From positions 1-53,888 of the IMG/VR virus record IMGVR_UViG_3300031578_000046: a stretch of DNA of 53,888 nt. The stretch is one strand, 5' to 3'. Shown here in pieces: positions 4,750 to 53,217 of the stretch. Source of the stretch: a virus. The position numbers and the translations under genes are program-made. The notes below the pieces were generated by a model, which was not told where the DNA came from, did not search any database, and was given only the letters and a program-made list of their open reading frames with translations. Position 1 is the first letter of the stretch, and the number at the start of each line of letters is the position of its first letter.

Positions 4750-4980
4750 TTAATAATTATCGGTTACAAGTTTTAAACCATTAAATTTATAAATTTTTAA
4801 TTTTCGTTTTATTGCCCCCTGATAGCTTATATTTTCATCTTTGGCATATTGTGATAATGTTTTAATATTTAAAATAATAGCAACGTGTTCAAAAATTTGA
4901 ACCAAATCATCATTATTTAGCTCTCCCTTATGAATACATGCAAATAATCTATCTTTTATAATAAGCGATCTATCAGACAT
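4750..4980 (-). CDS. Small helical protein at the 3' end of cassette island 1
   Basis: 76 aa. The C-terminal half (TLSQYAKDENISYQGAIKRK) resembles a helix-turn-helix that reads like a MerR/excisionase-type recognition unit, so DNA binding is plausible. Its first and last segments occur again, fused by an internal deletion, at 22785-22830 and 25039-25084. Each time they lie immediately downstream of a cassette island on the gene strand. A role as an island-boundary gene is therefore suspected. Confidence 0.72.
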   Translation of the reverse strand: MSDRSLIIKDRLFACIHKGELNNDDLVQIFEHVAIILNIKTLSQYAKDENISYQGAIKRKLKIYKFNGLKLVTDNY

Positions 4981-4991
4981 TTATGTTAAGT

Positions 4992-5026
4992 TTAAAATTT
5001 TGAACTGACTTTATACAATTGTTAGC
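4992..5026 (-). repeat. Island 3'-boundary repeat, copy 1
   Basis: Consensus on the gene strand: GCTAACAATTG, then TAAAGT, then AGTTCAAAATTTTAAACT. Related copies end islands at 17041-17075, 22840-22871 and 25094-25125. It supplies the last left-half core (GCTAAC) and an AT-rich near-palindrome but no right half. Confidence 0.75.
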
Positions 5027-5294
5027 GGCAAGCGAAGAAAGGCTTCGGCATTGGCTTCCAATATATTATTTTATTACTTGGTGGTGGACTGCTTTTATAT
5101 CTATTTTCCCACTTCTCACTACCATCGGTAAATTTAAAGTGCATTAAATGGTGTATTGTTCTGTTTTCAAGCATTACAATATATTCTGCTGTCATATCTG
5201 TTTGCGGTGGATAAAAAATATATGAACGCCAGCCGCTAACAAGCAATATAAAAAATGCCTTAAAGTGTGCTAAAATTGAAGTTCTTGTTTTCAT
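5022..5294 (-). CDS. Cassette protein, chimeric start inside attC-like site
   Basis: 90 aa. I chose the ATG at 5294 (MKTRTSILAH) over the longer frame because the upstream part lies over the neighbouring gene. The first 20 residues are encoded within the attC-like site 5235-5364 and end in LLVS, where GTTAGC is the right core. The cassette body begins GWRSYIFYPP. The stop codon TAA is part of the next core, GCTAAC, at 5021-5026. The N-terminus is hydrophobic (FKAFFILLV) and could act as a signal anchor. No family recognised. Confidence 0.72.
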   Translation of the reverse strand: MKTRTSILAHFKAFFILLVSGWRSYIFYPPQTDMTAEYIVMLENRTIHHLMHFKFTDGSEKWENRYKSSPPPSNKIIYWKPMPKPFFACR

Positions 5295-5364
5295 ATTTAC
5301 TTTATTTTTAATTGATAAATTAGTTCTTTGTAGTCGGCACTTTTCATATTGCCGACCATTAGGC
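5235..5364 (-). repeat. attC-like site 1 (start codon inside)
   Basis: 130 bp. The left half begins GCCTAATGG at the DUF3307 stop codon with left arm GCAATATGAAAAGTGCC. The right arm is GGCATTTTTTATATTGC, ending in core GTTAGC. The arms pair almost completely. The interior holds the ATG of the next gene. Confidence 0.82.
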
Positions 5365-7896: not shown

Positions 7897-7980
7897 CGCT
7901 CGGTTATTTATAATTTATATTCACGTTCATAATTTTGTGCTATTTTCAACAACGGCCAGCACTTACAAGTTGCCGTTAGC
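7695..7980 (-). repeat. attC-like site 6 with long interior
   Basis: Left half GCTAACGGCAACTTGTAAG at 7957-7980, followed by TGCTGGCC, pairs with right arm GGCTTGCATTTACAA and core GTTATAA at 7695-7722. The 286-bp span includes the start and first two-thirds of the gene at 7603-7896. Confidence 0.78.
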
Positions 7981-8281
7981 GGCAAGCTGGCCTCCACAAT
8001 TCAAATTTATCCATTAATCCGTCATCCCTCATCACCTTACCTACTCCTATATATTCAGCTTCTACCCAATCTATATTTCCTTTATATCTAATTCTATCAC
8101 CTATTTCTGGCTTTTCATCTTCAATATTCAGCCAGCCGCTAACATGCGGTATAGGTAATTTGCCGTCCTCCGATTTAAGTTTGTGCAAATCTGCCAAAAA
8201 ATTATCAACTAATTCTTTTGTTTCAAATCCTTCCAATGCTTTAGAAAGATTTTCATACTTTGTTATTAATTTCTGTATCAT
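7976..8281 (-). CDS. DUF551-like protein with shuffled N-terminus
   Basis: 101 aa. GWLNIEDEKPEIGDRIRYKG and the ending FELWRPACR match DUF551 (W-I-----LPE-G--V ... W-P). The core GTTAGC encodes Val-Ser immediately before the GW that opens the domain, at about residue 48. The 47 residues before it are helical and encoded between the arms of site 7. DUF551 is widespread in phages, of unknown function. The stop TAA lies in core GCTAAC. Confidence 0.82.
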   Translation of the reverse strand: MIQKLITKYENLSKALEGFETKELVDNFLADLHKLKSEDGKLPIPHVSGWLNIEDEKPEIGDRIRYKGNIDWVEAEYIGVGKVMRDDGLMDKFELWRPACR

Positions 8282-8361
8282 AATTTTTTTAAGTTAAGTA
8301 TTTCAATTCAAGTCTGGTGCGGTGCGTGGGGCAAACATACCCATACCGCCAGCCGTTAGGC
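8138..8361 (-). repeat. attC-like site 7 with long interior
   Basis: Left half GCCTAACGGCTGGCGGTATG with GGTATGTTTGCC pairs with right arm GGCAAATTACCTATACCGC and core GTTAGC. The span is 224 bp. Six extra bases sit next to the left core, as in attC spacer asymmetry. Confidence 0.85.
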
Positions 8362-8748: not shown

Positions 8749-9000
8749 CTATAAATTGCCTTCAATAAATCTATCTACGTGTCTTTCTGGTATGTACAGG
8801 TGCATTTCCTCGTCCTCATTAATCCATTCACGAAAGGCAATTAACAGTTCCCTTCGGTTGCTAACAACGGGTATAGCAAATAATTTTACTATCTTTTCTG
8901 TGTAATTGTTAATACTTTCTTGTATTTCACCAATTGTATTATCTCTCTCGGTAATCTGATTCTCAAATTCAATTAATAATTTTTTTACTTCTTTTTTCAT
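8749..9000 (-). CDS. Chimeric helical cassette protein
   Basis: 83 aa. Residues 1-45 form a coiled-coil-like helix (LLIEFENQITERDNTIGEIQ) encoded between the arms of site 9. At about residue 46 the core GTTAGC encodes Val-Ser, after which the body begins NRRELLIAFREWINEDEE. Both halves are mostly helical and acidic. No known family. The stop TAG precedes the decayed core GCTAATG by three bases. Confidence 0.72.
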   Translation of the reverse strand: MKKEVKKLLIEFENQITERDNTIGEIQESINNYTEKIVKLFAIPVVSNRRELLIAFREWINEDEEMHLYIPERHVDRFIEGNL

Positions 9001-9061
9001 AATATAGTTTTTTAGTGTTTCAAATCCGTAAAATTACATTGCCATACCCAAAACGTTATAA
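8860..9061 (-). repeat. attC-like site 9 (start codon inside)
   Basis: Left half TATAACGTTTTGGGTATGGC with AATGTAATTTT pairs with right arm AAAATTATTTGCTATACCC and core GTTAGC. Span 202 bp. Confidence 0.84.
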
Positions 9062-10118: not shown

Positions 10119-10286
10119 AAAAAAAGAACCCCTCCCTAAAAAATAATTATTACTTCCGTGTTTCAAATGTAGGTAAGTGATTAAACGCCAGTGTATAACA
10201 ACGCATAAAAATAAAAGCCTTTGGAAGCTTATTATTTCAAATTAACGTTGTAGTGTCGGCTTCAATTCTTATGCAAACCGTTAGGT
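10119..10286 (-). repeat. attC-like site 11 plus flank, duplicated at 51089-51255
   Basis: The site proper is 10195-10286, from ACCTAACGG with arm GCATAAGAATTGAAGCC to arm GGCTTTTATTTTTATGC and core GTTGTTA. About 76 further bases after the core are shared with 51089-51165. Past that point the two copies diverge into unrelated genes. Confidence 0.88.
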
Positions 10287-10529: not shown

Positions 10530-10658
10530 ACCTAACAATTTATATATTGCAAATTTTTTAGTAATTGTAGGTGAGTGGTTATTAATTTATTTTATCTCTA
10601 ATTGTTAATTTATCTCATTCTGGTTGCAAAATTCGACAACATATAAGTTGCCGTTAGC
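10530..10658 (-). repeat. attC-like site 12
   Basis: 129 bp. GCTAACGGCAACTTATATG pairs with TATATAAATT and core GTTAGGT. Confidence 0.8.
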
Positions 10659-10670
10659 AGCCATACAAGG

Positions 10671-10847
10671 CTACTTTTCATATCTTATTGCTCTGTCTTT
10701 CATTATGTGCCCACACTCAATGCATGGCTTTTCAAACCACACTTTACCATCATGCTTACATCCTTTACATACAGTTATTTCAACCTTAGTAGTACGGCTG
10801 CTAACAATATGTTTAGGTAATTGGGATTTTGTGTTATCTTGTTTCAT
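10671..10847 (-). CDS. Small zinc-ribbon cassette protein starting inside attC-like site
   Basis: 58 aa, MKQDNTKSQLPKHIVSSRTT. The ATG at 10847 and the first 16 residues lie in site 13, and the core GTTAGC encodes the Val-Ser of HIVSS. The body has VCKGCKHDGKVWFEKPCIEC with two C-x2-C pairs, a zinc ribbon. Its own cassette has no upstream ATG before the zinc ribbon, so expression depends on the attC-borne start. Stop TAG at 10671. Confidence 0.76.
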   Translation of the reverse strand: MKQDNTKSQLPKHIVSSRTTKVEITVCKGCKHDGKVWFEKPCIECGHIMKDRAIRYEK

Positions 10848-10926
10848 TGCATTTCAATTTTAAGTTTATCAATATTTGGTAGGGTAGTGCAAGTAATCCC
10901 AACTACCCAAACACTCAACATTAGGG
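10800..10926 (-). repeat. attC-like site 13 (start codon inside)
   Basis: 127 bp. CCTAATGTTGAGTGTTTGGG with TAGTTGGGATT pairs with AATCCCAATTACCTAAAC and core GTTAGC. Confidence 0.87.
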
Positions 10927-11371: not shown

Positions 11372-11665
11372 CTACTTACTAAGCTCAATTAAGCAATTCT
11401 TTAGTATTTCAAACGCATCCTCTTGCGCTGCTTCTGTTGTGGAAAATCCAGCCCCACGCTCACTCGGTTCATGCAAGCTTTCTTCTAACACTTGCAATGC
11501 TTTTTCGGCAGCATCTTCTATTGCGTTATCCACACGCTCACGCTCTTCAATTTCTTCCATAGCTATTCCATAACCTTCCCAGTTATCTACTCCAGCGCAT
11601 TCCAACGCACGCATTTTAGCTTCAATCAACTCTAATTCTTTTAATCTACTTTTTGAAATTTCCAT
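11372..11665 (-). CDS. Acidic helical cassette protein
   Basis: 97 aa, almost wholly helical and acidic: KSRLKELELIEAKMRALECA, MEEIEERERVDNAIED and EKALQVLEESLHE. No Trp-rich or Cys motif. Small acidic helical phage proteins can mimic DNA or bind host enzymes, but nothing specific supports that here. Base composition is visibly less AT-rich than the phage core. Confidence 0.72.
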   Translation of the reverse strand: MEISKSRLKELELIEAKMRALECAGVDNWEGYGIAMEEIEERERVDNAIEDAAEKALQVLEESLHEPSERGAGFSTTEAAQEDAFEILKNCLIELSK

Positions 11666-11797: not shown

Positions 11798-12178
11798 CTA
11801 CACCACTATCGGCTCTTCGCAAAATGGACATTCGCCAATCTGTATTACTTTTGTTTTGTAGAAGCTCCACGCACTAGCCCTATCAATTTCACTTTCGGTT
11901 ATTGGTGTATACCAGTTTCCAGAAACTTCGCCTGTAATATCATAATATCGTCCATTGTATTTAGTTATTACGTGGTCTTTTTCTTTGCTTATAAAAGCCT
12001 CACTTTCTGGGAAGAATGTTTTTAGCAACAAGTGAAATTGATAACACGCACCATTCATATAAATCATTTCAATATACCTATCTGTTTGGCGAAGTGCGTT
12101 AATAAACCGCAACATACCGCTAACAATACCTATATTTAATTGGGCGTTTACTGCCTCTTCAAACTCTTTTGCTTCCAT
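11798..12178 (-). CDS. Chimeric cassette protein with conserved DHVI-YYDITGE domain
   Basis: 126 aa. After 19 residues encoded within site 16, core GTTAGC (IGIVSG) opens the body. GACYQFHLLLKTFFPESEAF, then DHVITKYNGRYYDITGEV resembles a widespread phage and bacterial small domain of unknown function. The C-terminus has IGECPFCEEPIVV, a C-x2-C zinc-like tail. It has the same gene-site geometry as its neighbours. Confidence 0.76.
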   Translation of the reverse strand: MEAKEFEEAVNAQLNIGIVSGMLRFINALRQTDRYIEMIYMNGACYQFHLLLKTFFPESEAFISKEKDHVITKYNGRYYDITGEVSGNWYTPITESEIDRASAWSFYKTKVIQIGECPFCEEPIVV

Positions 12179-12245
12179 TTTGCTTTACTTTATATTGATA
12201 ATTTAGTGCTATTAATGCCCAACTAAACATAGCCGAGCCGTTAGC
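12119..12245 (-). repeat. attC-like site 16 (start codon inside)
   Basis: 127 bp. GCTAACGGCTCGGCTATG with TTTAGTTGGGC pairs with GCCCAATTAAATATAGG and core GTTAGC. The interior is related to that of site 20 at 18569-18696. Confidence 0.89.
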
Positions 12246-12251
12246 AAACAT

Positions 12252-17040: not shown

Positions 17041-17075
17041 TTAAAATTTTGAACTAACTTTATTCAATTGTTAGC
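17041..17075 (-). repeat. Island 3'-boundary repeat, copy 2
   Basis: Same GCTAACAATTGAATAAAG plus AGTTCAAAATTTTAAAC consensus as the other island ends. The DNA beyond it differs from the other three copies. Confidence 0.75.
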
Positions 17076-17448
17076 AATCAGTTTGCCGAGCAGAGCAATC
17101 ATAATCACCGTGTTTACATATATTGTTTTCATTATTTGCACAAGCATTTGAGTAGCAAACCGAATTGCTAACAAGTTGTATAATTAATGCTTTGTTCTCG
17201 TCTGTAATTTTTGCCCACGCACACTTTTCTTTGTCAAGTCCGTACAAGGCATTGCTAATCTCATTGTTAATATCTTCCCACCTATCATCTTCCTCAATCT
17301 CCTGCTCTTCCTCACATCCGCATTGCCTGCATATAGTTGTGTTTAAATGCCACTTATTACTACATACACCATCGTTTAGGTCAAATATTGCTCCGCAATG
17401 CTCGCAGGGTGTTGGCATTTCCATTTGTTCTAAATCATATTCTTCCAT
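17071..17448 (-). CDS. Chimeric zinc-binding cassette protein
   Basis: 125 aa. N-terminal module: CEHCGAIFDLNDGVC and CRQCGCEEEQ (zinc ribbon) followed by acidic helices. At about residue 94 the core GTTAGC encodes Val-Ser, and the last 32 residues are a separate Cys-rich module (NSVCYSNACANNENNICKHG). A similar short Cys-rich tail follows a core in the 23315-23683 gene, suggesting a shuffled C-terminal module. The stop TAA is in core GCTAAC. Confidence 0.76.
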   Translation of the reverse strand: MEEYDLEQMEMPTPCEHCGAIFDLNDGVCSNKWHLNTTICRQCGCEEEQEIEEDDRWEDINNEISNALYGLDKEKCAWAKITDENKALIIQLVSNSVCYSNACANNENNICKHGDYDCSARQTDC

Positions 17449-17535
17449 CGCTCGTAAATTTTAAAGTTTGTATCTCGTATTATCTTTTCTGCAAATTTGG
17501 TAAAGCGCACTAATCATACAACAGTACCGTTATGC
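17167..17535 (-). repeat. attC-like site 18 with very long interior
   Basis: Left half GCATAACGGTACTGTTGTAT with GATTAGTGC pairs with right arm GCATTAATTATACAACTT and core GTTAGC. Span 369 bp, with 93 codons of the downstream gene inside. Confidence 0.8.
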
Positions 17536-17841
17536 CCCATTAGGCTTAACATCTTCTACTCTATATTTAAGTACTTCTGTTTCTGAAACACCGCAACACA
17601 CGCATCTAATTACATCTACTATTTCATCGTGCATTATTTCGGCTGCAGGGCTTTGTACTGGCACATCTACCCAAGTGTTACTACGTAGTCGCCCAATAAC
17701 TTTGTGTGTGTATTGTTCATTTTTACAGCCATGTCTTTTCTGCTCAATTATTCCGTAATCTCCAAAATCTAAAACGGGGCATAACAATGCATCATATTGC
17801 ATAGCCTCGTTGTTATCGGTAGTTTCGTTCTTTTTATTCAT
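17530..17841 (-). CDS. Chimeric cassette protein, zinc-like CVCCG motif
   Basis: 103 aa. The first 20 residues (MNKKNETTDNNEAMQYDALL) lie in site 19, and the core GTTATGC follows directly, opening the body CPVLDFGDYGIIEQKRHGC. Later VIRCVCCGVSETEVL contains closely spaced Cys. No named family. The stop TAA is in core CATAAC. Confidence 0.74.
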   Translation of the reverse strand: MNKKNETTDNNEAMQYDALLCPVLDFGDYGIIEQKRHGCKNEQYTHKVIGRLRSNTWVDVPVQSPAAEIMHDEIVDVIRCVCCGVSETEVLKYRVEDVKPNGA

Positions 17842-17908
17842 TTCAGTTTATATTTTAAGGTTTGTAATTCTAATCAAAAGGCTACGCAACATATGCTAGC
17901 CATTATCG
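17779..17908 (-). repeat. attC-like site 19 (start codon inside)
   Basis: 130 bp. GATAATGGCTAGCATATG with TTGCGTAGCC pairs with GGCTATGCAATATGATG and core GTTATGC. Confidence 0.84.
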
Positions 17909-17913
17909 GCAAC

Positions 17914-18624
17914 CTAAAAAGACAGCGTACCTTGTTTGATACTTTCTGAAATTCGTTTGATTGCCTTGTCAATATATTCTTTGTCGATTTCACACGCTGT
18001 TAAGTGTAAATTCATTTTATCTAATCGGTTTGCTTTATCAACTGCCAAAGCTATTGAGCCGCTCCCGAAATGGGTATCTAATATCTTCATTCCTTCGGTT
18101 GCGTAGTTTTTTAAAGTATAACTATACAAACATATTGGTTTTTGTGTGGGATGGAACGTGCCCCCTTCACGCACTAAAACAAGTGGATTTTTAGTATATT
18201 CACGCAAAGCCCTATTAAATGAAGTGTAAGCAAGTTCAGCATCGGAACTGCTAAAATTACCACGGTCTTTTCTCCATATAATCCAGCCCATCGAAGGCTT
18301 TAAATATTCCACCATATAGTTAGCTCCCCAAATTATTTGGTTTTTGCTTACTCTGTATAATTCTTTAAAGTAATCTTCTGTTGGTATGTTTGTATCCCAG
18401 CCTTTAAATTCGTGGGCTTTTCTTCCTCCGTGGCTTCCGCTTGTTTGTTTTGCACCATCATACCCAATCCCATAAGGTGGGTCAACAATAGCCAAATCAA
18501 AGTATTTATCAGGGTATTGCTTCATAATTTCCATACAATCAGCGTGGAAAAGAGAAAGAAAAGGCAGCCGATAACACTCGCTATATGCAATTTGGGGGTC
18601 GGTGGTATTCGTAAGTTCGTTCAT
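17914..18624 (-). CDS. DNA methyltransferase, beta class (N4/N6)
   Basis: 236 aa. DPPYGIG (48-54, catalytic motif IV) precedes HPTQKP and ILDTHFGSGSIALA (SAM motif I), the beta-class order. It methylates DNA, adenine N6 or cytosine N4. No restriction enzyme is adjacent, so it is probably an orphan that protects phage DNA or regulates. The first 16 residues (ending IAYSE) come from within attC-like site 20; the body starts at the Cys-Tyr (TGTTAT) core and continues RLPFLSLFHADCMEIM. Confidence 0.93.
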   Translation of the reverse strand: MNELTNTTDPQIAYSECYRLPFLSLFHADCMEIMKQYPDKYFDLAIVDPPYGIGYDGAKQTSGSHGGRKAHEFKGWDTNIPTEDYFKELYRVSKNQIIWGANYMVEYLKPSMGWIIWRKDRGNFSSSDAELAYTSFNRALREYTKNPLVLVREGGTFHPTQKPICLYSYTLKNYATEGMKILDTHFGSGSIALAVDKANRLDKMNLHLTACEIDKEYIDKAIKRISESIKQGTLSF

Positions 18625-18696
18625 TTAATTTACATTTGTTAAGTTTGATAGTGCAGTGCTTTTAATTCCCAAACTGCACATAGCGGAAACGTTAGC
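18569..18696 (-). repeat. attC-like site 20 (start codon inside)
   Basis: 128 bp, 5' end of island 2. GCTAACGTTTCCGCTATGTG with CAGTTTGGG pairs with CCCCAAATTGCATATAGC and core GTTATCG. Confidence 0.86.
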
Positions 18697-18730
18697 AATA
18701 ATTAGCCATCACACGCCATTCATTCTACTT

Positions 18731-22686: not shown

Positions 22687-22736
22687 AGCTGTTTGTTTAA
22701 TTATATTTAAAGATAATTAATAATTTTTATAAAATA

Positions 22737-22871
22737 TATGACTTTTATCATGTTTTGTTATTTATAATCATTATTAATAATTATCAGTTACAAGTTTTAA
22801 ACAAATTAATAAGCGATCTATCAGTCATTTATATTTAGTTTAAAATTTTGAACTAACTTTATTCAATTGTT
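22737..22871 (-). repeat. Boundary repeat with deleted gene, copy 3
   Basis: 135 bp, about 97% identical to 24991-25125. It contains only the first and last codons of the gene at 4750-4980 (now MTDRSLINLFKTCN then stop) plus the island 3'-end element. Confidence 0.85.
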
Positions 22872-22879
22872 GTGCGCAA

Positions 22880-23314: not shown

Positions 23315-23683
23315 CTATTCAAAGCATTTTTTATTCTTGTTGCATACGTGGTTTATTGGTCTTATAGTGCAATTACTAGCATTTTTGCAGGCCAGATTGC
23401 TAACACCAAATATATTTAATGCTTGGTTGGTGCTTTTAATAGGCATTTCGCCCTCACACACTTTTTGCAAAGCTTCTATATCTATCAAGTTTAGTTCTTC
23501 AGCAATACTATATGCTATCTCATACGTGCCTTTTGCTTTTTTGGGCTTATGGTTTCTAAACTCAATTTCTCTGCCTAACTCAAAGTCGTATCTCTTATCT
23601 GTAAAAGGCACTTGCTTCGTGTAGCTGTAATCAACTATTAGCTTCCTTTGGTGTCCATCAAATTTTATGTTATATATTGCCAT
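23315..23683 (-). CDS. Chimeric cassette protein with Cys-rich tail
   Basis: 122 aa. The N-terminal 95 residues (MAIYNIKFDGHQRKLIVDYS, then ELNLIDIEALQKVCEGE) lie between the arms of site 22. Core GTTAGC encodes Val-Ser, then SNLACKNASNCTIRPINHVC gives a short Cys-rich module related in spacing to the tail of the 17071-17448 protein. Stop TAG. Confidence 0.75.
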   Translation of the reverse strand: MAIYNIKFDGHQRKLIVDYSYTKQVPFTDKRYDFELGREIEFRNHKPKKAKGTYEIAYSIAEELNLIDIEALQKVCEGEMPIKSTNQALNIFGVSNLACKNASNCTIRPINHVCNKNKKCFE

Positions 23684-23762
23684 CGCTCTGTATTTTTATC
23701 GTTTGTACTATTAATTAAAGTTCGTGCTAATTTTACGCACTAAACATATTTTTTTCGTTAGC
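23399..23762 (-). repeat. attC-like site 22 with very long interior
   Basis: GCTAACGAAAAAAATATG with TTTAGTGC pairs with GCATTAAATATATTTGG and core GTTAGC. Span 364 bp, like site 18. Confidence 0.76.
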
Positions 23763-23967
23763 GGTCATTGTCGTTCTTTTTCAACCATCGCATAAATGAG
23801 TTAAACCCTGCATCTATTTCGGCTTCTGGGCTATATGGTGCAACTTCTCCTAAGTTTGTAGCTTTCCATTCATCTACCAATTTTTCTACTTTTTGGTAAA
23901 ACAACGAACCGCTAACACTAAATATAGGCAAATTGCCGTTTTTATTTGTTTCTTTATTTGTACTCAT
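23758..23967 (-). CDS. Chimeric cassette protein
   Basis: 69 aa. MSTNKETNKNGNLPIFSVS is the leader from within site 23 (core GTTAGC = Val-Ser). The body is GSLFYQKVEKLVDEWKATNL, then EIDAGFNSFMRWLKKN, a small helical protein. The stop TAA is in core GCTAAC. Confidence 0.72.
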   Translation of the reverse strand: MSTNKETNKNGNLPIFSVSGSLFYQKVEKLVDEWKATNLGEVAPYSPEAEIDAGFNSFMRWLKKNDNDR

Positions 23968-24037
23968 AGGTCAGTTTATTTTATTAAGTTTCTACTAATT
24001 TTCAAGGGCAATCAGCCCATATTATTTTCCATTATAA
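23911..24037 (-). repeat. attC-like site 23 (start codon inside)
   Basis: 127 bp. TATAATGGAAAATAATATG with GGCTGATTGCC pairs with GGCAATTTGCCTATATTT and core GTTAGC. Confidence 0.85.
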
Positions 24038-24913: not shown

Positions 24914-24990
24914 TTTGTAAAGTTTTTAGTTAATAATTATTTGTTTTATTAATTATAACGTCTAAATTACGTATAAGTTTTAATATATTA

Positions 24991-25125
24991 TATGACTTTT
25001 GTCATGTTTTGTTATTTATAACCATTATTAATAATTATCAGTTACAAGTTTTAAACAAATTAATAAGCGATCTATCAGTCATTTATATTTAGTTTAAATT
25101 TTTGAACTGACTTTATTCAATTGTT
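24991..25125 (-). repeat. Boundary repeat with deleted gene, copy 4
   Basis: Copy of 22737-22871 with about four differences, again directly downstream of an island on the gene strand. Confidence 0.85.
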
Positions 25126-25194
25126 ATCGTTCATTGCCGTGAAAAGGCAGTGTTTAAAACGAATAGAAAGAAGCACGGCAACGAAAACGATAAC
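25123..25194 (-). repeat. Minimal cassette between two cores
   Basis: 72 bp bounded by GTTATCG and CGATAAC in perfect inversion, with inner TTGCCGTG/CACGGCAA arms. It holds no own start; a frame entering from upstream could read VIVFVAVLLSIRFKH and stop after the core. Confidence 0.66.
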
Positions 25195-25638: not shown

Positions 25639-25821
25639 TTAAAGAGCAAGTTCACAAGCCTTACTTCCGTCTTTTAATCTTAAGCAGAATTTACAGTGTT
25701 TATACTTTGGTAAGTTACACCAACTACTATCAGCGTGTGGGCATTTATCATTATTATGGTCGTAGTCTTTATTAACGCCATATAACACGCTGTCATAGGT
25801 AATTTTGCTATCTTTTTTCAT
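25639..25821 (-). CDS. Chimeric Cys-rich cassette protein
   Basis: 60 aa. MKKDSKITYDSVLYG is encoded in site 27 (core GTTATA in the VLY codons). The body has CPHADSSWCNLPKYKHCKFC, four Cys and two His in zinc-finger-like spacing, and a tail ACELAL. Likely a small zinc protein. Confidence 0.75.
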   Translation of the reverse strand: MKKDSKITYDSVLYGVNKDYDHNNDKCPHADSSWCNLPKYKHCKFCLRLKDGSKACELAL

Positions 25822-25908
25822 CTTTAGTATGTATTTATAAGTTTGTAATTCTAATTAATTTTAGTGCTGTTTGTAGGGCAAAACTACCCATACAGCCATT
25901 CATTAGCC
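25790..25908 (-). repeat. attC-like site 27 (start codon inside)
   Basis: 119 bp. GGCTAATGAATGGCTGTATG with GGTAGTTTTGC pairs with GCAAAATTACCTATGACAGC and core GTTATA. Confidence 0.86.
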
Positions 25909-25913
25909 GTAAT

Positions 25914-26276
25914 TTAAACGACCGTTGTAACTGTATAGTCTTTCATTACTATTTGAAAATCTTTGACAGGGTATTTACCAGACCCACCAAGTTTTTCAAT
26001 TAATGAAAGCACTTCATCGGTTAATATTTCTCGTTCAATTTCGGAAATATTTAAACCCTTTACTCGTTCCATATATCTAATAATAGCGTGTTCTGAAACT
26101 TTAACATTACTGTTATTGTTAAATGAATTAATAGTTTCTTTTAATTTAGTTATTGCCTGTAATTTTTGATTGTATTCTCGTTGTTTATTAGCAACTTCAA
26201 TTTTCAAAACTTCGGCATCTCCAATCATTATATTTAATTGAGATTGTAATTGTTTTATTTTTCGTATATCATTCAT
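25914..26276 (-). CDS. Coiled-coil cassette protein
   Basis: 120 aa from MNDIRKIKQL. An in-frame start inside site 28 (26351) would add MTNLNNSTTLIGAWHIYRVS and four to five further residues, so both starts are possible. Residues 5-60 are coiled coil. The second half (VKVSEHAIIRYMERVKGLNI) resembles a small conserved phage/bacterial domain with H-A-x-x-R, as in some nuclease-like or toxin-like proteins, but I cannot name it. Confidence 0.74.
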   Translation of the reverse strand: MNDIRKIKQLQSQLNIMIGDAEVLKIEVANKQREYNQKLQAITKLKETINSFNNNSNVKVSEHAIIRYMERVKGLNISEIEREILTDEVLSLIEKLGGSGKYPVKDFQIVMKDYTVTTVV

Positions 26277-26291
26277 AATAAATAAACTACG

Positions 26292-26383
26292 GCTAACACG
26301 GTATATATGCCATGCGCCAATTAGTGTCGTGCTATTATTTAAGTTTGTCATGGGCGCACGTCACATATACCCATCCGTTAGGT
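26292..26383 (-). repeat. attC-like site 28
   Basis: 92 bp with well paired arms: ACCTAACGGATGGGTATATG with TGACGTGCGCC, against GGCGCATGGCATATATACC and core GTTAGCC. An in-frame ATG lies in the interior. Confidence 0.88.
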
Positions 26384-29644: not shown

Positions 29645-30304
29645 TCAATCTTTTATTAATCTTATTGACATGCCGTCATAAGCGTTTGAGGGACCTAAAC
29701 AAGGATTAAGAATACTTGCTGTATTATAATGCAACCTCATAAAATAATAATAAACACTCGTGCTTTTAAATTTCATATAAAAATATTGATTTATTTGTGA
29801 AAAATTATATATATCTAATTGATAAAAGCCGCATGGTCTAGCACTAAAATGAATAGTATCAATAGCCCCTGTATTTGGACTTTGCCAATATGTAGTTCCT
29901 TCCTCTTTTAAAAAACCTCCATTAATAGCATAATCACAGTTTCTTGGTATTCCGAGGATTAATCTGAGTGTTTGAAATTCATTAGTGTCCGGGATATGCC
30001 AACCGCTTATATTTTCTGACATTCTATTAGCTCCTGTATCAGTATACAATATTCCATATTCCCAATATGATGTGGAATCATTATCATACCAATACATTCC
30101 GGTATCATTATCCATATACCTAAGGTTTTCACACATCCAAGTTTGAGTGCCTACCGTCACAATTTCATATTTTATTCCACCGATAGTAGAACTATCAAGT
30201 GTGTACACAATACTATCATTATTATTACCTATTATAAAAAATGGCACTTGACAAAAACTGTCAAGACTAAAAACAATAAATAATATTATTAATATTTTTT
30301 TCAT
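29645..30304 (-). CDS. Secreted Fib_succ_major-like adhesion protein
   Basis: 219 aa. Signal peptide MKKILIILFIVFSLDSFCQ. VGTQTWMCENLRYMDNDTGM, then SGWHIPDTNEFQTLRLILG is the Fib_succ_major (TIGR02145-type) pattern typical of Fibrobacter and Bacteroidetes surface proteins. It follows a large fibre gene two bases away and is likely the tip or chaperone of that fibre, or a secreted cell-binding protein. Confidence 0.86.
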   Translation of the reverse strand: MKKILIILFIVFSLDSFCQVPFFIIGNNNDSIVYTLDSSTIGGIKYEIVTVGTQTWMCENLRYMDNDTGMYWYDNDSTSYWEYGILYTDTGANRMSENISGWHIPDTNEFQTLRLILGIPRNCDYAINGGFLKEEGTTYWQSPNTGAIDTIHFSARPCGFYQLDIYNFSQINQYFYMKFKSTSVYYYFMRLHYNTASILNPCLGPSNAYDGMSIRLIKD

Positions 30305-30305
30305 A

Positions 30306-33305
30306 TTATAAATCTTGTAAATCATCAATACTTGTTACAATCATTTTCCAGCCATTATAATAACAGCTTAATAAAGTATGTGAGCTTGCTGTTGCTGTTA
30401 TTGTTGGCTGAGTGCCTTCGGTTGCTCTCCATTTATCGGCTGCTAATGTTACCGCATACCCTGTACCCCCTTGTATTATTTCAATTAAATAAGTGCCTAT
30501 TTCAGCATTACTATAATCTAATACTGTTATTTCATCAGGTGTTAAAACAAATAAATTTGAGCCGCTTAAATCTAAAGTATAACTACCTCCATCATTAATT
30601 GAATCTCTATTTGTAAAAATTATTTGATCGAACTGAGAATTAGTGGCTTTTATATTCCCATTAATCTCAAAAGTATCTGTTGCGGCTGGTAGAGTTACTA
30701 TTAAATCATTGCCGTCTTCGTGCAATGATACTGAGCCTATTTTTAAGCTGTCATTAATTAACACATTCCCATTTACCTCTAGTTTTTCTGAGGGGGTTGT
30801 TGTTCCTATCCCAATAAATCCAGTATTTCCTTTTATAACTAAAGCATCAACAGAAGCCCCTATGCCATTAAAATAAAAATCAGGGGAATTATTATCATCA
30901 TAATCATAAATTCCAAAACTCCAGCTATTATCTTCATTTTGTATCCGCATAGAAGCATCCCTATCACTTTCATACAAATGAAAAATATTAGATGGATTAT
31001 TAACTCCTATTCCAACATATCCATTCTCAGCAATTCTCATTTTCTCATCCCCATCAATATTAAATATATGAGATGAAGCATCATAATAACCACTATCGGC
31101 TGTGATGTATAATTTCAATGTGTTTGACCCAATAAATAAAGTGTCCTTTAAATGCAACCCCAAAGAAGTAAGCCACATTTTGCGAGTGCCGTTAATACTA
31201 AATACAGTTGAATCCTGACTTGTGTAAAAACTGGTATTAGCATAACTGCCTGCTTTTAATGGATTAACGATAAAAGCAATCCTTTCACTCCCTCCAGTTC
31301 GATTTTCTATTTTACCCCCTGTTATTAATGAAAAATCCTCATCTGTTGCATCCATTCCATAGGCTTGAGTTGCGTAGTTTCCTACGGTGGCATTTGAATT
31401 GGTTATTAAAGAAGATATTGTCGGGGTTGTTGTTGCACTTGCACTTTCAATGTGGAGTTTGGCGAGGGGGGATATTGTTCCTAGACCTAATTTTCCATTA
31501 TATTTTAATCTCATTTTTTCTGTCCCCACTGTATTAAAATCTAAATTACTACCCGATGGGGCTGTTCCGAAAAGTATATCCCCATATTCTGCCCCATTTG
31601 CGTTATTAATTATCTGCCCAAAAATACCAGCATATATATGTGGATTTCCGCCTACATCTTTTAATCCAAAAGAACCGCCCCCAGAATAATCCCCTATCTG
31701 AGCTACTGCCCCCCCGGCTCGGCCTTTTATATATGAATGCGTTACCCCGTATGTATTATTTGAATTTCTTTGTTGATAAACAGAACTTGAATTATTATCT
31801 ATACCTACTATATTCAATGCAAAAATTGGTGTTGCTATTCCTACTCCTATATTATCAAAATAACCCGTATCTGCCTGAAATTTCCGCCCGTCTGTTTTTG
31901 GGCTTATTATATTACCTATTAATTCAAATAAACTCGTATCTGCTATGTCCGCTTTTAAAGCCAAAGAATCAATTAATTGAGCATCCGTTACAAAATTACT
32001 ATCACCAACACTTACAAGCGTCCTATCAATTATACTTCCTGCAAAATCTGATGTATCTGAGCTATGTATATAACCGGATGTATCTGCAATAAGATTATTA
32101 ATATTAGTTAGATTAGTATTAATACGGGTGTTATGTTCTTGTAAGGTATCGAGATGCACGGCGGCCGTATCATATAATGCTGATATACTATCATGTACGG
32201 CTAATAATGAATCATTAATAATTGCTCTTATACTATCGATTGTTTCGGTAGAGTCTATAAAATCTCTATTTAATAGTGAATCATAAAAATCTGCTAATTT
32301 CAAATAATTATTAGTAAAATACTCCTCGGATAAAGGTGTTAACCAATTACTAGCTTCTTCACCCTGGTAATATATATATGTTGTTGTATTCTGAGACCCC
32401 CCTGTTGTTTGCATGTAAATTTTACCGACTAATCGTGAATTACTTGCAGCAGTTCCATAGCTAGTTGACAAAACAGTTGATATTTGAAATTCATCCTTAC
32501 TTGTAACTAAACTACTTAAATTTGATGTTGAAATTAGGTGTTCAGTACCATCATTTTCACGTTCATAAAAATCCCAATATAAACGTACACTTCTATTCCC
32601 TGCTGTTTTTTGAGCATGAATATGAAGTGTATATATACCGGCAATTAAGCTATCGAATGCAAGCCCCGATGGTGAAATCCACTCTTCAATAAGTGTATTC
32701 GTTTCAGCATCGACTGATGTATTTACTGATGCTGTTGTAAGTTCGCTAGGAGTTAATGATGTTTGTTTATATGTAGCTACCGCAATATCAGCAGCATCTA
32801 ACAAATAATATCTAGCTCCTAAATTAACATTTGCAGCCACATATTTTTCTACCCATTCAGCATCAACAAGATTATGCTGCATAAGAGAGTCGTGGTCATC
32901 TCTAAGGCTTGGATTATTATTAAACAATGTTATTGAAGCTGTATCAATTTCTGCATAGGTAGAATAAATCGAATCAGCTATTAATGTATCGAGCGTTAAT
33001 GTTGGACGTAAACTATCTTGTAAAGCATCTTTTCTTAATAAATCTGTTCTTAAATTACTTGCGGTGTCATCAATTTCAGATTGTATAGTAACAATGGTAT
33101 CTTTTAATTGAGTTATTGTCACCCATTCGGTAATGCTATCTTGAATCATTGGGTGACGTGTTGAGTCATAACGATAAGTTTGTCCATTTCCAGAACCGGC
33201 AAATTGAATAGAATCAACATTTATATAATATACATCATTAGCATATTGTTGAGAAAATACACTAATTGAAATAAAGCTAAATAATAATAATAATATCTTT
33301 TTCAT
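30306..33305 (-). CDS. Large tail-fibre-like protein with signal peptide
   Basis: 999 aa from MKKILLLLFSFISISVFSQ, an evident signal peptide. The centre contains VGIATPIFALNIVG, LGLGTISPLAKLHI, VGIGVNNPSNIF and IGIGTTTPSEKLEVNGNV, the VGIGT-P--KL-V-G repeat of tail-fibre/head-fibre proteins. It probably forms a trimeric beta fibre contacting the host. A signal peptide in such a protein is unusual for a virion part. Confidence 0.82.
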   Translation of the reverse strand: MKKILLLLFSFISISVFSQQYANDVYYINVDSIQFAGSGNGQTYRYDSTRHPMIQDSITEWVTITQLKDTIVTIQSEIDDTASNLRTDLLRKDALQDSLRPTLTLDTLIADSIYSTYAEIDTASITLFNNNPSLRDDHDSLMQHNLVDAEWVEKYVAANVNLGARYYLLDAADIAVATYKQTSLTPSELTTASVNTSVDAETNTLIEEWISPSGLAFDSLIAGIYTLHIHAQKTAGNRSVRLYWDFYERENDGTEHLISTSNLSSLVTSKDEFQISTVLSTSYGTAASNSRLVGKIYMQTTGGSQNTTTYIYYQGEEASNWLTPLSEEYFTNNYLKLADFYDSLLNRDFIDSTETIDSIRAIINDSLLAVHDSISALYDTAAVHLDTLQEHNTRINTNLTNINNLIADTSGYIHSSDTSDFAGSIIDRTLVSVGDSNFVTDAQLIDSLALKADIADTSLFELIGNIISPKTDGRKFQADTGYFDNIGVGIATPIFALNIVGIDNNSSSVYQQRNSNNTYGVTHSYIKGRAGGAVAQIGDYSGGGSFGLKDVGGNPHIYAGIFGQIINNANGAEYGDILFGTAPSGSNLDFNTVGTEKMRLKYNGKLGLGTISPLAKLHIESASATTTPTISSLITNSNATVGNYATQAYGMDATDEDFSLITGGKIENRTGGSERIAFIVNPLKAGSYANTSFYTSQDSTVFSINGTRKMWLTSLGLHLKDTLFIGSNTLKLYITADSGYYDASSHIFNIDGDEKMRIAENGYVGIGVNNPSNIFHLYESDRDASMRIQNEDNSWSFGIYDYDDNNSPDFYFNGIGASVDALVIKGNTGFIGIGTTTPSEKLEVNGNVLINDSLKIGSVSLHEDGNDLIVTLPAATDTFEINGNIKATNSQFDQIIFTNRDSINDGGSYTLDLSGSNLFVLTPDEITVLDYSNAEIGTYLIEIIQGGTGYAVTLAADKWRATEGTQPTITATASSHTLLSCYYNGWKMIVTSIDDLQDL

Positions 33306-33315
33306 AAGTTTTATA

Positions 33316-34137
33316 TTAAGGTACATCTGATGTTAGATACGAAAACGCAAAGGCTAATTTATATGTTGATGCAAAATTATAATCATAAAATATCTTTATT
33401 TGTCCATTATAATAAAAATCAGCACCCCAATCATAAGAATCTGATCCCCCCCAATTTCCTAAAGACAAAAAAGATGAAGTAGCGACCCCACAATTGTGGG
33501 GTCTAAGGGCTGATGGTATTGTATAATTAGTGACTGTAACGGAAGTTCCTCCATTATCAAATATTAAACATATATTACCTATTACCATATCTCCCGTTTT
33601 TCTCAGCGACATATATCCTATAGTATCTGCCCCTACTTTTAATATTTGATCGTCTACCTCTGTAATATTTAAATCAATCACTAAATTTACGCTCGCCCTC
33701 CATTGTGTGGTTTCATCAATATCCTGTAAAAATTGTGATACTGATAATCTTCTATCTTCAGTTTCGCTTAAATCATAGAGTGTCATATAATCATTAACGC
33801 TAGCCGTTACTAATGGGGTTTGTGATACTATATAAGGGTTAAGCTGAAGTAATGATACTTTTCTTTCTATATTGGACGTGGTGTCGGTCGTTATTCTTGC
33901 AAATGTTGCTGATCGGCTTAAATCACCATTCAACAATTGTTCATGTTTAATTTTAGGACTTACAATTGACCATGGGATAGCCATAGTGTAATCATTTACT
34001 ACGCTTGTAGAATCATCAACTATAAACTTAGCTGAATCAGTATAAACGCTTAATTGACTCATTTCAAAAATTCTTTCATTTTGTCCATAAATATTTACGA
34101 CAAATAATAATAATACGATTTTTAATAGTGTTTTCAT
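33316..34137 (-). CDS. Fibre-associated protein with signal peptide
   Basis: 273 aa. MKTLLKIVLLLFVVNIYGQ is a signal peptide. The rest is beta-rich (VTVTNYTIPSALRPHNCGVA, then WGADFYYNGQIKIFYDYNFA). Its place between tail proteins suggests a tail-tip or receptor-binding component. Function inferred from position. Confidence 0.74.
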   Translation of the reverse strand: MKTLLKIVLLLFVVNIYGQNERIFEMSQLSVYTDSAKFIVDDSTSVVNDYTMAIPWSIVSPKIKHEQLLNGDLSRSATFARITTDTTSNIERKVSLLQLNPYIVSQTPLVTASVNDYMTLYDLSETEDRRLSVSQFLQDIDETTQWRASVNLVIDLNITEVDDQILKVGADTIGYMSLRKTGDMVIGNICLIFDNGGTSVTVTNYTIPSALRPHNCGVATSSFLSLGNWGGSDSYDWGADFYYNGQIKIFYDYNFASTYKLAFAFSYLTSDVP

Positions 34138-34141
34138 AATT

Positions 34142-35086
34142 TTATCTTATTTTGTGTCTTAATGTGCCTGTTTTTGTTCTTATTGGGTTTCTGTTTTTAT
34201 CTATCACATAATGTGTTTCTTCAGCGGCTACAGCCTCCAACACATCATAACTCTCAAATCCTATATCCTGTAATTTTACACTACCACTATAGATATATGT
34301 ATTTGGTATTTTTTCATAATTTAAAGAATCTTCTGCCCTATATTGTCTATTGTTTATAAAAAGATTATCATGTAATATAGCAAGATTTAATTGACGTATT
34401 ACCCAAAAAGGAACGGGGCCAAGCTGTAAATTTACATACTCAAGCGCATTCCCTTGTAATAAATTGAATATTCCATTAACCCCGGAATATCCTGTTTTTA
34501 TTTGCCCCGGTTCTATATCAAAAAATCTAGATTCTAATCTAAAAATATTATATTTTACGCCGTAATAAATGCCATCATTATTATAAGATGTTGTATTATT
34601 ATAATATTTAACCACAACAGTATCGCCCTCGTTAATAGATGATACATAAAAAGGTTCACATCTATAAGTTTGTGACGTATTTATTGTTGCAATAACATAA
34701 TACCAGCCTCCTAATACTGAGCAGTCTATATTAAAATCATAATAACTTACTAAACCGTATGAAGTGTTGACAGTTGTTGTAGCCGATGGAATGGCGATAC
34801 TAGATACTTCCACATCTGTTCTAAAATTACGGAGGCTAAATGAACCGATAGTATGTATAGTTGCAATTTGCGTGTTTATTTGATCCCCAGTTCCTGTATT
34901 GTCATATTTAGGAAAATAATTCCAATCGTCATCAGTATTTGGTACAACTAAATTACCTAGTAATCTATTATCTAACAATGGTAAAGTTCCTGCTTGATTA
35001 TCAGTTCTAACCCATCGTAAAACATTACTTTTGGCAATTCTTACGCCTCCATCACTTATATCAATATCTCCGGTAGTTGCGCTCAT
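34142..35086 (-). CDS. Tail structural protein
   Basis: 314 aa, no signal peptide, beta-rich (SATTGDIDISDGGVRIAKSN). It shares one base with the upstream gene. Probably a tail-tip or adhesion protein because it lies between the baseplate-like protein and the fibres; family unknown. Confidence 0.72.
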   Translation of the reverse strand: MSATTGDIDISDGGVRIAKSNVLRWVRTDNQAGTLPLLDNRLLGNLVVPNTDDDWNYFPKYDNTGTGDQINTQIATIHTIGSFSLRNFRTDVEVSSIAIPSATTTVNTSYGLVSYYDFNIDCSVLGGWYYVIATINTSQTYRCEPFYVSSINEGDTVVVKYYNNTTSYNNDGIYYGVKYNIFRLESRFFDIEPGQIKTGYSGVNGIFNLLQGNALEYVNLQLGPVPFWVIRQLNLAILHDNLFINNRQYRAEDSLNYEKIPNTYIYSGSVKLQDIGFESYDVLEAVAAEETHYVIDKNRNPIRTKTGTLRHKIR

Positions 35087-35535
35087 TAAATTTTTTCTAT
35101 TATTTTATATTTTACCGTTATGGTATTTCCCGTTCCATTATAAATATCCCAATAAAATTGTCCAGCAATTACAGAACTTTGTTTAAAATTTATTAATGCA
35201 TCTATAGTGCCAAGCCCTGATTTTGGAATAAATTTACCAGTAGTTCCATCATATACAAATTCCATTTCAATTTTATATCTATCTGTAGAATTTATTATAA
35301 ATGCTTTTACTGACCAATATTGATAAGTCGCTACGGCTCCTAATGGTATAGCTGTACTTCCCAATGTTGTTACTGTTAATGGAGTCCATTCACCTACAGC
35401 AATAGCTAATACATAAGCATCAAAACCAGCTTTCGAAAGTCTTTTATTAGTAGCATTTGAATCTCTAGTCATCATAAAATGATCATCTGCTATTGGTTCG
35501 GTTATAATTGTTGCGTTTGCTGAAAATTTAGCCAT
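35086..35535 (-). CDS. Tail protein, small
   Basis: 149 aa, MAKFSANATIITEPIADDHF, then RDSNATNKRLSKAGFDAYVL. Beta-rich, likely part of the tail tip. Its start follows the 585-aa tail gene by 11 bases. Function unknown. Confidence 0.7.
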   Translation of the reverse strand: MAKFSANATIITEPIADDHFMMTRDSNATNKRLSKAGFDAYVLAIAVGEWTPLTVTTLGSTAIPLGAVATYQYWSVKAFIINSTDRYKIEMEFVYDGTTGKFIPKSGLGTIDALINFKQSSVIAGQFYWDIYNGTGNTITVKYKIIEKI

Positions 35536-35546
35536 TTTTTATATTT

Positions 35547-37304: not shown

Positions 37305-37306
37305 AA

Positions 37307-39652: not shown

Positions 39653-40302
39653 TATGCGGCTTTATTTTGAGCGTTCATCTGTTCACGAGTTTTTATTACT
39701 TCAATCATTCTCTTCTTAGCACTTATAAATGTTAACATACTATCTTTATATATGTCTATCTTTATATTTGCCATGCTTTCGATAAGTAATACTATTTCTA
39801 AATAGCTTGTATTCCCTTTTTTTTCTTTAGTTTTCTTTTCAATTAAGTCCTCAATTTCTTTGTTTTTTCGGTTTATCTGATTTGTTTTATTTATAGCTCT
39901 GTTTCTTAATCGATCTATTTCTTTTTCAAGTTCATCAATATTAGTATAGTTTAATTTGTAATCCATTTGAGCCAATATGTTTTCAAAAAAATCAAAGTCT
40001 AATTTTATTCCAGAATATTTATAACCCATTAAAAAAAGAACATTTAATATAAATTGCTGATCTGACTGTAATCTAACAACCATTTTACTTAAATCTAAAA
40101 GCTCATTTTGTTGTGGAGGATCAATCTCATCATATTTTTCTTTTAATACATCCCTTGTTTCTTCAAGTTCTTTAATATTATCAACATCAGGCAGTTCCAT
40201 GTAATTATCTAAAACAAGTAAATACCTGGCATCTTCAAAACTTTCGAAAAAGCTAAATACTGTACAAAATTTTAGTTCTTTATATACCTTTGGTAATATC
40301 AT
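39652..40302 (-). CDS. Tail assembly-type helical protein
   Basis: 216 aa, largely helical (NIDELEKEIDRLRNRAINKT). It sits between the major tail protein region and the tape measure, where tail assembly chaperones are usually encoded, and shares one base with the tape measure start. Inferred role only. Confidence 0.72.
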   Translation of the reverse strand: MILPKVYKELKFCTVFSFFESFEDARYLLVLDNYMELPDVDNIKELEETRDVLKEKYDEIDPPQQNELLDLSKMVVRLQSDQQFILNVLFLMGYKYSGIKLDFDFFENILAQMDYKLNYTNIDELEKEIDRLRNRAINKTNQINRKNKEIEDLIEKKTKEKKGNTSYLEIVLLIESMANIKIDIYKDSMLTFISAKKRMIEVIKTREQMNAQNKAA

Positions 40303-40714
40303 TTAATATCTCTTTTTCAAAGTCCGGTGCTAAGTTTAGATTATCAATTTTTTGAATCCCAAAAATAGGCTGGCCACTTACTAAGTTGACCAGCTTATCT
40401 CTTTTACTATCTTTGGAATCTATCTCAGAATTATTATTATTCTGTTTTAAAAAGAACTTTTCAGTAAAATCACCCTCTAAATAAAAGTTATAACGCTTTC
40501 CAGCATTGAATAAAAGCCCCTCAGCCGCTTTACCTTTATAATAATCTTGGCTTGCATATTCAGGAAACTTACCACCATTAGCATCTTCACCCCTTTTTAG
40601 TTGGTTTACATTTTCATCAATCAACTCCGCTTCATTTTTCTTTAGAACCCTTGCTTCTATTTCCTGAAGGTTTAGATTCTTTAGATTTGTCAATAGTATC
40701 TGTATTACTTCCAT
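40280..40714 (-). CDS. Tail-completion-like protein
   Basis: 144 aa. ARVLKKNEAELIDENVNQLK, then GKRYNFYLEGDFTEKFFLK. Overlaps both neighbours (23 and 83 bases). Between the major tail protein and the tape measure; possibly a tail terminator or chaperone. No confident family. Confidence 0.65.
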   Translation of the reverse strand: MEVIQILLTNLKNLNLQEIEARVLKKNEAELIDENVNQLKRGEDANGGKFPEYASQDYYKGKAAEGLLFNAGKRYNFYLEGDFTEKFFLKQNNNNSEIDSKDSKRDKLVNLVSGQPIFGIQKIDNLNLAPDFEKEILNDITKGI

Positions 40715-40865
40715 TATCTTTTATTTTACCACCGAGTTGAACAAAAATCTTTTCATAATCAAATGGAACATTATGAAAGATTGCTTTAAATTTCTCTAAA
40801 GTACACTTGCCTTTTATTCCAAGTGTGATATTATGTTCTTTGCCGGTCTTATCAAATACTATCAT
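40632..40865 (-). CDS. Small tail protein, possible assembly chaperone
   Basis: 77 aa. N-terminal beta (MIVFDKTGKEHNITLGIKGK) then a basic, disordered tail (KESKPSGNRSKGSKEK). The gene overlaps the next by 83 bases in another frame. Such overlaps and position match tail chaperone pairs, but I see no slippery frameshift signal. Confidence 0.68.
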   Translation of the reverse strand: MIVFDKTGKEHNITLGIKGKCTLEKFKAIFHNVPFDYEKIFVQLGGKIKDNGSNTDTIDKSKESKPSGNRSKGSKEK

Positions 40866-52972: not shown

Positions 52973-53161
52973 TGTACATAAGGTAATTGTGCAATCTGGG
53001 CAAGTCCCATTAGTCATTAAGATATGTTCGTTGCAAATTTCGCAAACCGCCACTTCGTTATTTCTAACAATAGATAAACGCAATATTTCGTTTTGCATTT
53101 TACCTTTTGTTAGTTCTCCTTTATTGTATCTGTCTACAATTTTTTGTATTTCTAATCTCAT
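52883..53161 (-). CDS. Chimeric zinc protein reading through the attC-like site
   Basis: 92 aa. N-terminal 33 residues (MRLEIQKIVDRYNKGELTKG) lie in site 35. Core GTTAGA then VCEICNEHILMTNGTCPDC, a zinc-ribbon. No stop follows at the left core; the frame continues through all of site 34 and stops only in GTTATAA, adding a hydrophobic tail (WLYYIYILL). Probably a read-through after loss of the usual stop. Confidence 0.66.
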   Translation of the reverse strand: MRLEIQKIVDRYNKGELTKGKMQNEILRLSIVRNNEVAVCEICNEHILMTNGTCPDCTITLCTPLNVCVVQPCTYFQLKTKLNWLYYIYILL

Positions 53162-53188
53162 AATACTGCGTTTATCATTAACATTAGC
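53063..53188 (-). repeat. attC-like site 35 (start codon inside)
   Basis: 126 bp. GCTAATGTTAATGATAAACGC pairs with GCGTTTATCTATT and core GTTAGA. Confidence 0.84.
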
Positions 53189-53217
53189 TAATTACTTTCA
53201 TAATATTTTAGTTTAAG

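Follow-up and report, generated by a model that had tools for sequence, protein, structure and literature searches.

Clusters of attC sites without an integrase (CALINs) have been described in virulent phages, including Polaribacter phage P12002L (Qi et al. 2023, PMC9892861). Two attC sites of this phage were assayed in that study, and one of them recombined with IntI1; these two may or may not be among the sites that we find in the same genome. In the parts of the study considered here, phage attC sites are given as recombining through the top strand at a lower but real level, the working P12002L site showing none (PMC9892861). In a class 1 integron, moreover, gcuF1-OXA-28 is an experimentally proven translational fusion running through attC into the next cassette (PMC3375312). 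The literature that we searched, mostly outside subscription journals and preprints, yielded no report in which attC-like sites regularly contain start codons, and none of uniformly inverted phage cassette arrays.

The stretch of DNA analysed here in its entirety (the window) is a virus record 53,888 bases long and has a terminal repeat of 177 bases. Because a near-identical contig spans both of its ends, we regard the window as a circularly assembled phage. The isolate phages nearest to it by methyltransferase have Cellulophaga and Flavobacterium as hosts, and a host within the Bacteroidota is therefore likely for the window phage as well. The first-pass annotation of this DNA had proposed that attC-like sites supply the start codon and N-terminus of many genes, using the short gene at 10671-10847 as its clearest case.

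Attachment-like sites and the cassettes between them

The window holds about 28 attC-like hairpin sites, every one on the minus strand, which is also the coding strand of the array genes. An arm-plus-stem scan found 28 minus-strand sites scoring above 30, none above 29 on the plus strand (where no array was found), and a maximum of 26.2 in five Markov shuffles, scores that are partly circular since the profile was trained on 19 of the 28 window sites. Sites taken up below, with their genes and the repeats at the array ends, are these:

10799..10926, minus: focal attC-like site, 128 nt; left box CCCTAAT, arms, ATG 10847 in the loop, right arm, core GTTAGCA
10671..10847, minus: focal gene, 58 aa; 14-residue leader MKQDNTKSQLPKHI in the site, then VSSRTTKVEI...; body without an early ATG
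10653..10805, minus: focal cassette body, with its own matched boxes GTTAGCAGCC / GGCTGCTAAC
18569..18697, minus: attC-like site, 129 nt; ATG 18624 of the DNA methyltransferase
17914..18624, minus: N6 DNA methyltransferase, 236 aa; putative 16-residue leader from the site; site and body kept together in other phages
12118..12246, minus: attC-like site; ATG 12178
11798..12178, minus: YunG-like phage protein; homology from the core (residue 18) on; own ATG possible at core +9
5234..5364, minus: attC-like site; ATG 5294; same site and leader with another body in G015 (L092)
5022..5294, minus: gene, 90 aa; leader MKTRTSILAHFKAFFILL then VSGW...; stop codon inside its own 3' box
8137..8361, minus: long site, 225 nt; ATG 8281; gene 7976-8281, 46-residue leader
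8859..9061, minus: long site, 203 nt; ATG 9000; gene 8749-9000, 45-residue leader
17779..17908, minus: site; ATG 17841; gene 17530-17841 (phrog_18349), phase 2
17166..17535, minus: very long site, 370 nt; ATG 17448; 92-residue leader and Cys-rich 33-residue tail
23398..23763, minus: very long site, 366 nt; ATG 23683; 93-residue leader and Cys-rich 29-residue tail
23910..24037, minus: site; ATG 23967; gene 23758-23967
25780..25908, minus: site; ATG 25821; gene 25639-25821, phase 2, Cys-rich
26291..26383, minus: site, 93 nt; ATG 26351; gene 25914-26351, own ATG possible at core +21
53062..53189, minus: site; ATG 53161; gene 52883-53161
10193..10286, minus: site without a usable start, 94 nt; interior identity 1.00 to 51162-51255, same flanking cassette ends, neighbour sites differ
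4999..5028, plus: putative attI-like repeat, copy 1, TTTGAACTRACTTTATWCAATTGTT..., opening array 1 in the plus direction
17048..17077, plus: putative attI-like repeat, copy 2
22847..22876, plus: putative attI-like repeat, copy 3
25101..25130, plus: putative attI-like repeat, copy 4

Each site runs from a left box (NGCTAAC and variants) through an arm, a loop and a second arm to a core of GTTAGC or similar. The 28 scanned sites carry the R''/R' boxes of attC (RYYYAAC ... GTTRRRY), with cores that are mostly GTTAG, GTTAT, GTTAC or GTTG and left boxes that mostly end in AAC or AAT. Over the 74 sites of the window and its relatives, lengths cluster at about 55-65, 93-97, 128-131 and more than 190 nt. 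The inverted repeats correspond to L''/L' with a variable loop between them, and their stem scores exceed those of shuffled sequence; a clear long minus-strand stem was seen in six of the nine sites folded, those at 23910-24037, 17779-17908 and 53062-53189 being without one. When folded as RNA, all four sites tried place the ATG within a stem-closed loop (z of -3.6, -3.4, -2.7 and -1.8), the first value belonging to the focal site, whose stem is uninterrupted. Bulges occur on either arm, with no consistent extrahelical base to mark the strand, and two G.T wobble positions, a signature noted in these sites, show 156 left-G/right-T pairs versus 23 reversed and 25 A.C among the 74 sites, a set whose selection partly favours that strand. 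An Rfam search gave no match.

Independently of the arms, gene bodies are bounded by matching boxes, of the form 5' GTTAGCGGC... and 3' ...GCCGCTAAC, so that the 5' end of a cassette is complementary to its own R'' box, as in known gene cassettes. These boxes are about nine bases long and are often followed by a short mismatch and then further complementarity. Of such pairs the minus strand holds 47, where 50 shuffles gave a mean of 24.5 and never more than 37; pairs whose match is extended number 20, compared with 2.3 in shuffled sequence and 6 at most. Paired ends of this kind would be the mark expected of a former cassette circle, although they are symmetrical and hence silent on which side of the body the site belongs. 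One cassette, at 5857-5829 on the minus strand, is almost empty, with about 29 nt between the core and its own 3' box. Another cassette gene, at 11372-11665 on the same strand, encodes a T7 gp5.9-like RecBCD-inhibitor domain (PF25708, E 2.8e-14) and could possibly be counter-defence cargo. The Cys-rich focal protein is weakly zinc-ribbon-like, its Pfam matches being weak and below cut-off.

No tyrosine recombinase was found in the window or in 18 further records, one of which is the same phage, and the locus is accordingly not a complete integron with intI next to attI, even though attI-like repeats are present. One could then argue that the hairpins are not integron attC sites at all but regulatory hairpins of 5'-untranslated regions, serving as patches for homologous recombination between phages; such an origin would agree with the phages' lacking a detected integrase, with site interiors that are 84-98% alike between unrelated flanks, and with the strong folding of the gene strand as RNA. 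It would leave aside, however, the body ends that match each other as in cassette circles, the GTTRRRY cores, the similar sites that lie beside intI in bacterial genomes, and the recombination with IntI1 of one of the two P12002L attC sites (PMC9892861), possibly one of those found here. We consider it improbable, and treat the hairpins below as attC-like sites.

Start codons and leaders within the sites

The 12 ATGs originally listed as lying between the arms (5294, 8281, 9000, 10847, 12178, 17448, 17841, 18624, 23683, 23967, 25821 and 53161) were all recovered between the boxes with the frame continuing across the core, and with 26351 and 7896 the total reaches the 14 genes that had been given as a minimum. 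The sites of 17448, 23683 and 7896 are long (370, 366 and 287 nt) and lower-scoring (41, 40 and 33). Of the window bodies, 17 stay open over 90 nt or more from the core, and 11 of these are preceded by an in-frame, stop-free ATG in the site, whereas 4.0 would be expected with site interiors shuffled. The predicted leaders span 11 to 93 amino acids. The reading of the core as Val-Ser, in phase 0, is right for the GTTAGC cores, but not for 18624, 17841 and 25821, which cross in phases 1, 2 and 2. Likewise, the statement that bodies often lack an ATG of their own stands for 5 of the 11 scan-listed genes (25821, 23967, 17841, 10847 and 8281, judged on the first 75 nt of the body) and for 17448, 23683 and 7896, but not for 12178 and 26351, which have a plausible ATG at +9 and +21. 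In 9 of the 20 window genes behind a site the start lies after the core instead. Judged by their open frames, the attC-like hairpins are confirmed to hold the start codon and leader of about half of the genes carried.

With ORFs under 45 aa dropped, 69 cassette genes of 45 or more codons were counted in the window, the related phage contigs, one locus of a metagenome-assembled genome (MAG) and P12002L: 13 with a start in the site only, 25 with both kinds of start and 31 with only their own, after the core. Starts are carried by 36 of the 48 sites longer than 100 nt versus 2 of the 21 sites of 100 nt or less (Fisher p 5e-7). All 16 crossings of a GTTAG core in the main set use phase 0, with phase 2 open too. 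L096 and L097, from the same phage, were dropped from all counts. We also considered a general excess of ATGs in site loops and rejected it, as 65 unique sites had 18 in the bin from -60 to -51, where 14.2 would be expected; the 34 start-bearing sites account for 14 of these 18, and the ATG peak between -110 and -101 comes from the conserved TATG in the left arm.

If the genes in question truly started after the core, at an ATG of their own or a non-ATG codon, the open frames through the sites would be by-products of stop-poor arms and the leaders would remain untranslated. The good ATGs available to 12178 and 26351, and the 31 of 69 cassette genes with a start only after the core, would be in keeping with this. 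Several observations argue the other way, besides the excess of in-frame starts and the eight window genes without an early ATG of their own. Within the methyltransferase family, ATG and core are 49, 61 or 67 nt apart depending on the phage, with the phase unchanged (L088 is an exception, its ATG being absent from the usual place). The window methyltransferase's own ATG, at +41, would cut off the conserved HADC segment, whereas the leaderless homologues examined that are not in cassettes begin a few residues before the counterpart of this segment. Taken together, these are strong hints that the leaders are translated, and an absence of translation seems to us quite improbable. The independent annotation of P12002L has gp37 starting inside such a site and crossing the core. 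The proposal that the site provides the start codon and N-terminus is upheld at the level of the open frame, from which translation would follow, and homologues of the bodies outside arrays are without the leader.

Cassette polarity and the re-use of leaders

The start-bearing site appears to be inherited together with the gene that follows it. In L001 and L013, two methyltransferase relatives, the match to the window begins at 18694, in the left box of the upstream site, and ends at 17903, in the 3' box that belongs to the gene itself; the flanks are unrelated. For recurring bodies, the upstream sites have identities of 0.96, 1.00, 0.88 and 0.88 and the downstream sites 0.26, 0.64, 0.33 and 0.31 (for the twin cassettes of the window, with cores at 10199 and 51168, 1.00 upstream and 0.64 downstream; for their relative in L079, 0.88 versus 0.31-0.33). 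Among 35 non-twin pairs with both sides available, the upstream site is more alike by over 0.1 in 20 and the downstream site in 5, pairs that are not independent and come mostly from one methyltransferase family, the near-identical twins L085, L087 and L095 having been dropped; four of the five contrary pairs share one weak unit, L079:7809. The twin cassettes themselves (10199-9429 and 51168-50479, minus strand) have the same site and the same 5' and 3' ends (93-95% over 166 and 80 nt) with different genes in the middle.

The four attI-like repeats lie at the low-coordinate ends of the arrays, and the phage sites point toward them. A 76-aa gene at 4750-4980, on the minus strand, adjoins copy 1; at copies 3 and 4 (22724-22871 and 24978-25125) what appear to be the two ends of this gene are present with the middle deleted. 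A search of all viral contigs for the repeat returned the near-identical contig and no other phage lineage. We also looked at 20 genomic regions with an intI-type integrase; of 395 genomes, 107 had a match, and the regions were picked from these. The eight sites that score at least 33 and lie no more than 4 kb from intI (in 6 of the 20 regions) all point toward it; over the same distance three of four sites scoring 30-32 point away, as do two sites that score 33 and lie more than 7 kb from intI. On the grounds of co-inheritance, the attI-like repeats and the direction relative to intI, we take the phage gene strand to be the bottom strand, and the genes to be inverted relative to canonical cassettes: the site is co-inherited at the 5' end of the gene rather than at its 3' end. 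The start would then travel with the gene to which it belongs, and ordinary insertion should make no fusion, so that the earlier idea of a fusion arising with any insertion is not supported; recurring bodies usually keep the upstream site and lose the downstream one, and sites point toward intI or the attI-like repeats.

The same leader is nonetheless found before different bodies. Among site pairs at least 0.74 alike, 29 of 49 precede unrelated bodies. In L080 and L082 the site interiors are 0.90 alike, with no good alignment outside the boxes and unrelated flanks, and a predicted 20-residue leader, MNI(E/D)TTNA(Q/P)NTTETAIGFIP, followed by CYR, is fused right at the core to an N6-adenine methyltransferase in one case and a C5-cytosine methyltransferase in the other. 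Different leader-body combinations meeting precisely at the core had been named beforehand as the finding that would establish shuffling, and this pair provides it. Other start-bearing pairs are 1022 of L086 with 1984, with 242 and with 8655 of L084; 15695 of L092 with 16466; and 5240 of the window with 11627 of L092. Both products of 1022 and 1984 match an N6 methyltransferase profile, one of them differently arranged. The phase is the same in these six start-bearing pairs, which are at least 0.80 alike; in five pairs at 0.76-0.79, involving L082 16634 and a phase-1 site, phases differ, in step with the core type. Sequence comparison thus shows that re-use of leaders at the core has happened, and that it is not what every insertion does. 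In L086, L082, L084 and L092, several different DNA methyltransferases are adjacent in the same array, and each has a start-bearing site of its own.

Unrelated bodies sharing the same site and leader are also what one would expect if the arrays had canonical orientation, so that a start-bearing site would belong to the upstream cassette and every body inserted behind it would become a new N-terminal fusion, for which gcuF1-OXA-28 offers a proven example of fusion through attC (PMC3375312). We find this unlikely, because bodies retain the upstream site and lose the downstream one, leader-sharing pairs are unrelated upstream of the site too, and the sites have the opposite polarity with respect to both intI and the attI-like repeats.

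The account that we favour, and hold to be probable, is that a host integrase moves inverted integron-type cassettes in trans, and that their long attC loop has become a leader for ribosome entry and start. Around the sites, frames, co-inheritance and re-used leaders that the genomes display, we infer the integrase, a promoter, translation and a route for leader swapping. The mobile unit would be an attC-like hairpin plus its own gene, whose 5' end the hairpin occupies, and the genes would point toward the end that holds the attI-like repeat; as no phage tyrosine recombinase is detectable, a host integron integrase is assumed to act in trans. With the hairpin placed ahead of the gene, the long loop could have turned into a translation-initiation region. 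The mRNA would have the sequence of the folded gene strand, the loop would carry the ribosome-entry region, and the ribosome, on opening the stem, would read from the start codon in the loop through a leader of about 11-93 residues, the right arm and the core into the body, the leader presumably being a tolerated N-terminal extension. Ordinary crossover would take place at the far box, outside the coding region, moving leader and gene together, and a rarer exchange at the core box would join the same leader to another body, for example through the integrase acting on the other, less used strand, homologous recombination between similar sites, or new cassette formation. The fixed reading phase of GTTAG cores would make such core-box joins productive. 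Comparison of near-identical contig pairs revealed no gain or loss of cassettes through indels, and caught no event of excision or insertion.

It is tempting to go further and see in these phages a pool of inverted cassettes in which the hairpin is a portable start module, and integrase exchange at the core swaps leaders and bodies in a standard frame, to yield combinatorial methyltransferases and other small counter-host proteins. We offer this tentatively, and would sooner bet against it than for it. Should the account that we favour be true, a site-specific recombination site doubling as a coding leader would couple cassette exchange to the N-terminus of the protein, the expression of inverted cassettes in phages without an integron platform would be explained, and N-terminal peptides as well as cassette circles would be predicted.

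Relatives and comparison with known systems

In P12002L (L101), 9 of the 10 sites scoring at least 30 are on the minus strand. Its region 30005-40952 holds more attC-like sites than the two assayed in the published study, and with two tested and published there and nine here, phages might hold more such sites than canonical detectors report, as far as the part of that study considered here goes (PMC9892861).

Wider searches added few loci. The junction pattern of the methyltransferase had no match in genome contigs; a search with its protein returned one Bacteroidota MAG locus and one short match, and a helicase query matched the near-identical contig alone. For relatives by TerL, 17 of 74 loci were scanned without finding a site, and the whole record of one of them (G414) has an array; no site was found in G415. 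The G414 array, added later and kept outside the main counts, extends over 30.8-36.8 kb with 6408 coding bases on the site strand versus 681 on the other. Four of its sites have attC starts, with putative leaders of 21-50 residues (35694, 34095, 33189 and 31429), and the frames with an attC ATG at 30769 and 39308 are doubtful. Its GTTAG cores comprise one in phase 0, one in phase 2 and one doubtful, the phase-2 case being an exception to the single phase seen elsewhere. Below about 30.8 kb (L230), the array end adjoins what we take to be a gene resembling a type I restriction specificity gene.

Of the closest described systems, the CALINs of Qi et al. share with the window attC sites and cassettes in integrase-free phages, P12002L having the same kind of site. 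That account, in the part considered here, notes sites of divergent direction but gives no starts within sites, inverted polarity or leader re-use (PMC9892861). Chromosomal integrons in the phylum of the Bacteroidota MAG have some nearby sites that fit the window profile; they differ in having intI, and in that several regions have the coding beside the sites mainly on the other strand from that of the phage genes, a comparison of coding totals only, which is mixed in other regions. With GCUF1-OXA-28 the window shares a frame that passes through attC and core into the next gene, its translation being presumed in our case; the former, as described in the part of the source considered, is one canonically oriented fusion and lowers expression, whereas in the window about half of the genes are concerned and the site is 5' to the gene it belongs to (PMC3375312). 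A further parallel is found in ORF-11, ORF-17 and ORF-18 of attI1, where a start signal within a recombination site overlaps the crossover and serves the inserted cassette. According to the part of that source considered, those signals reside in attI and act mostly by translational coupling, whereas the putative starts of the window reside in the attC of each cassette (PMC8876359).
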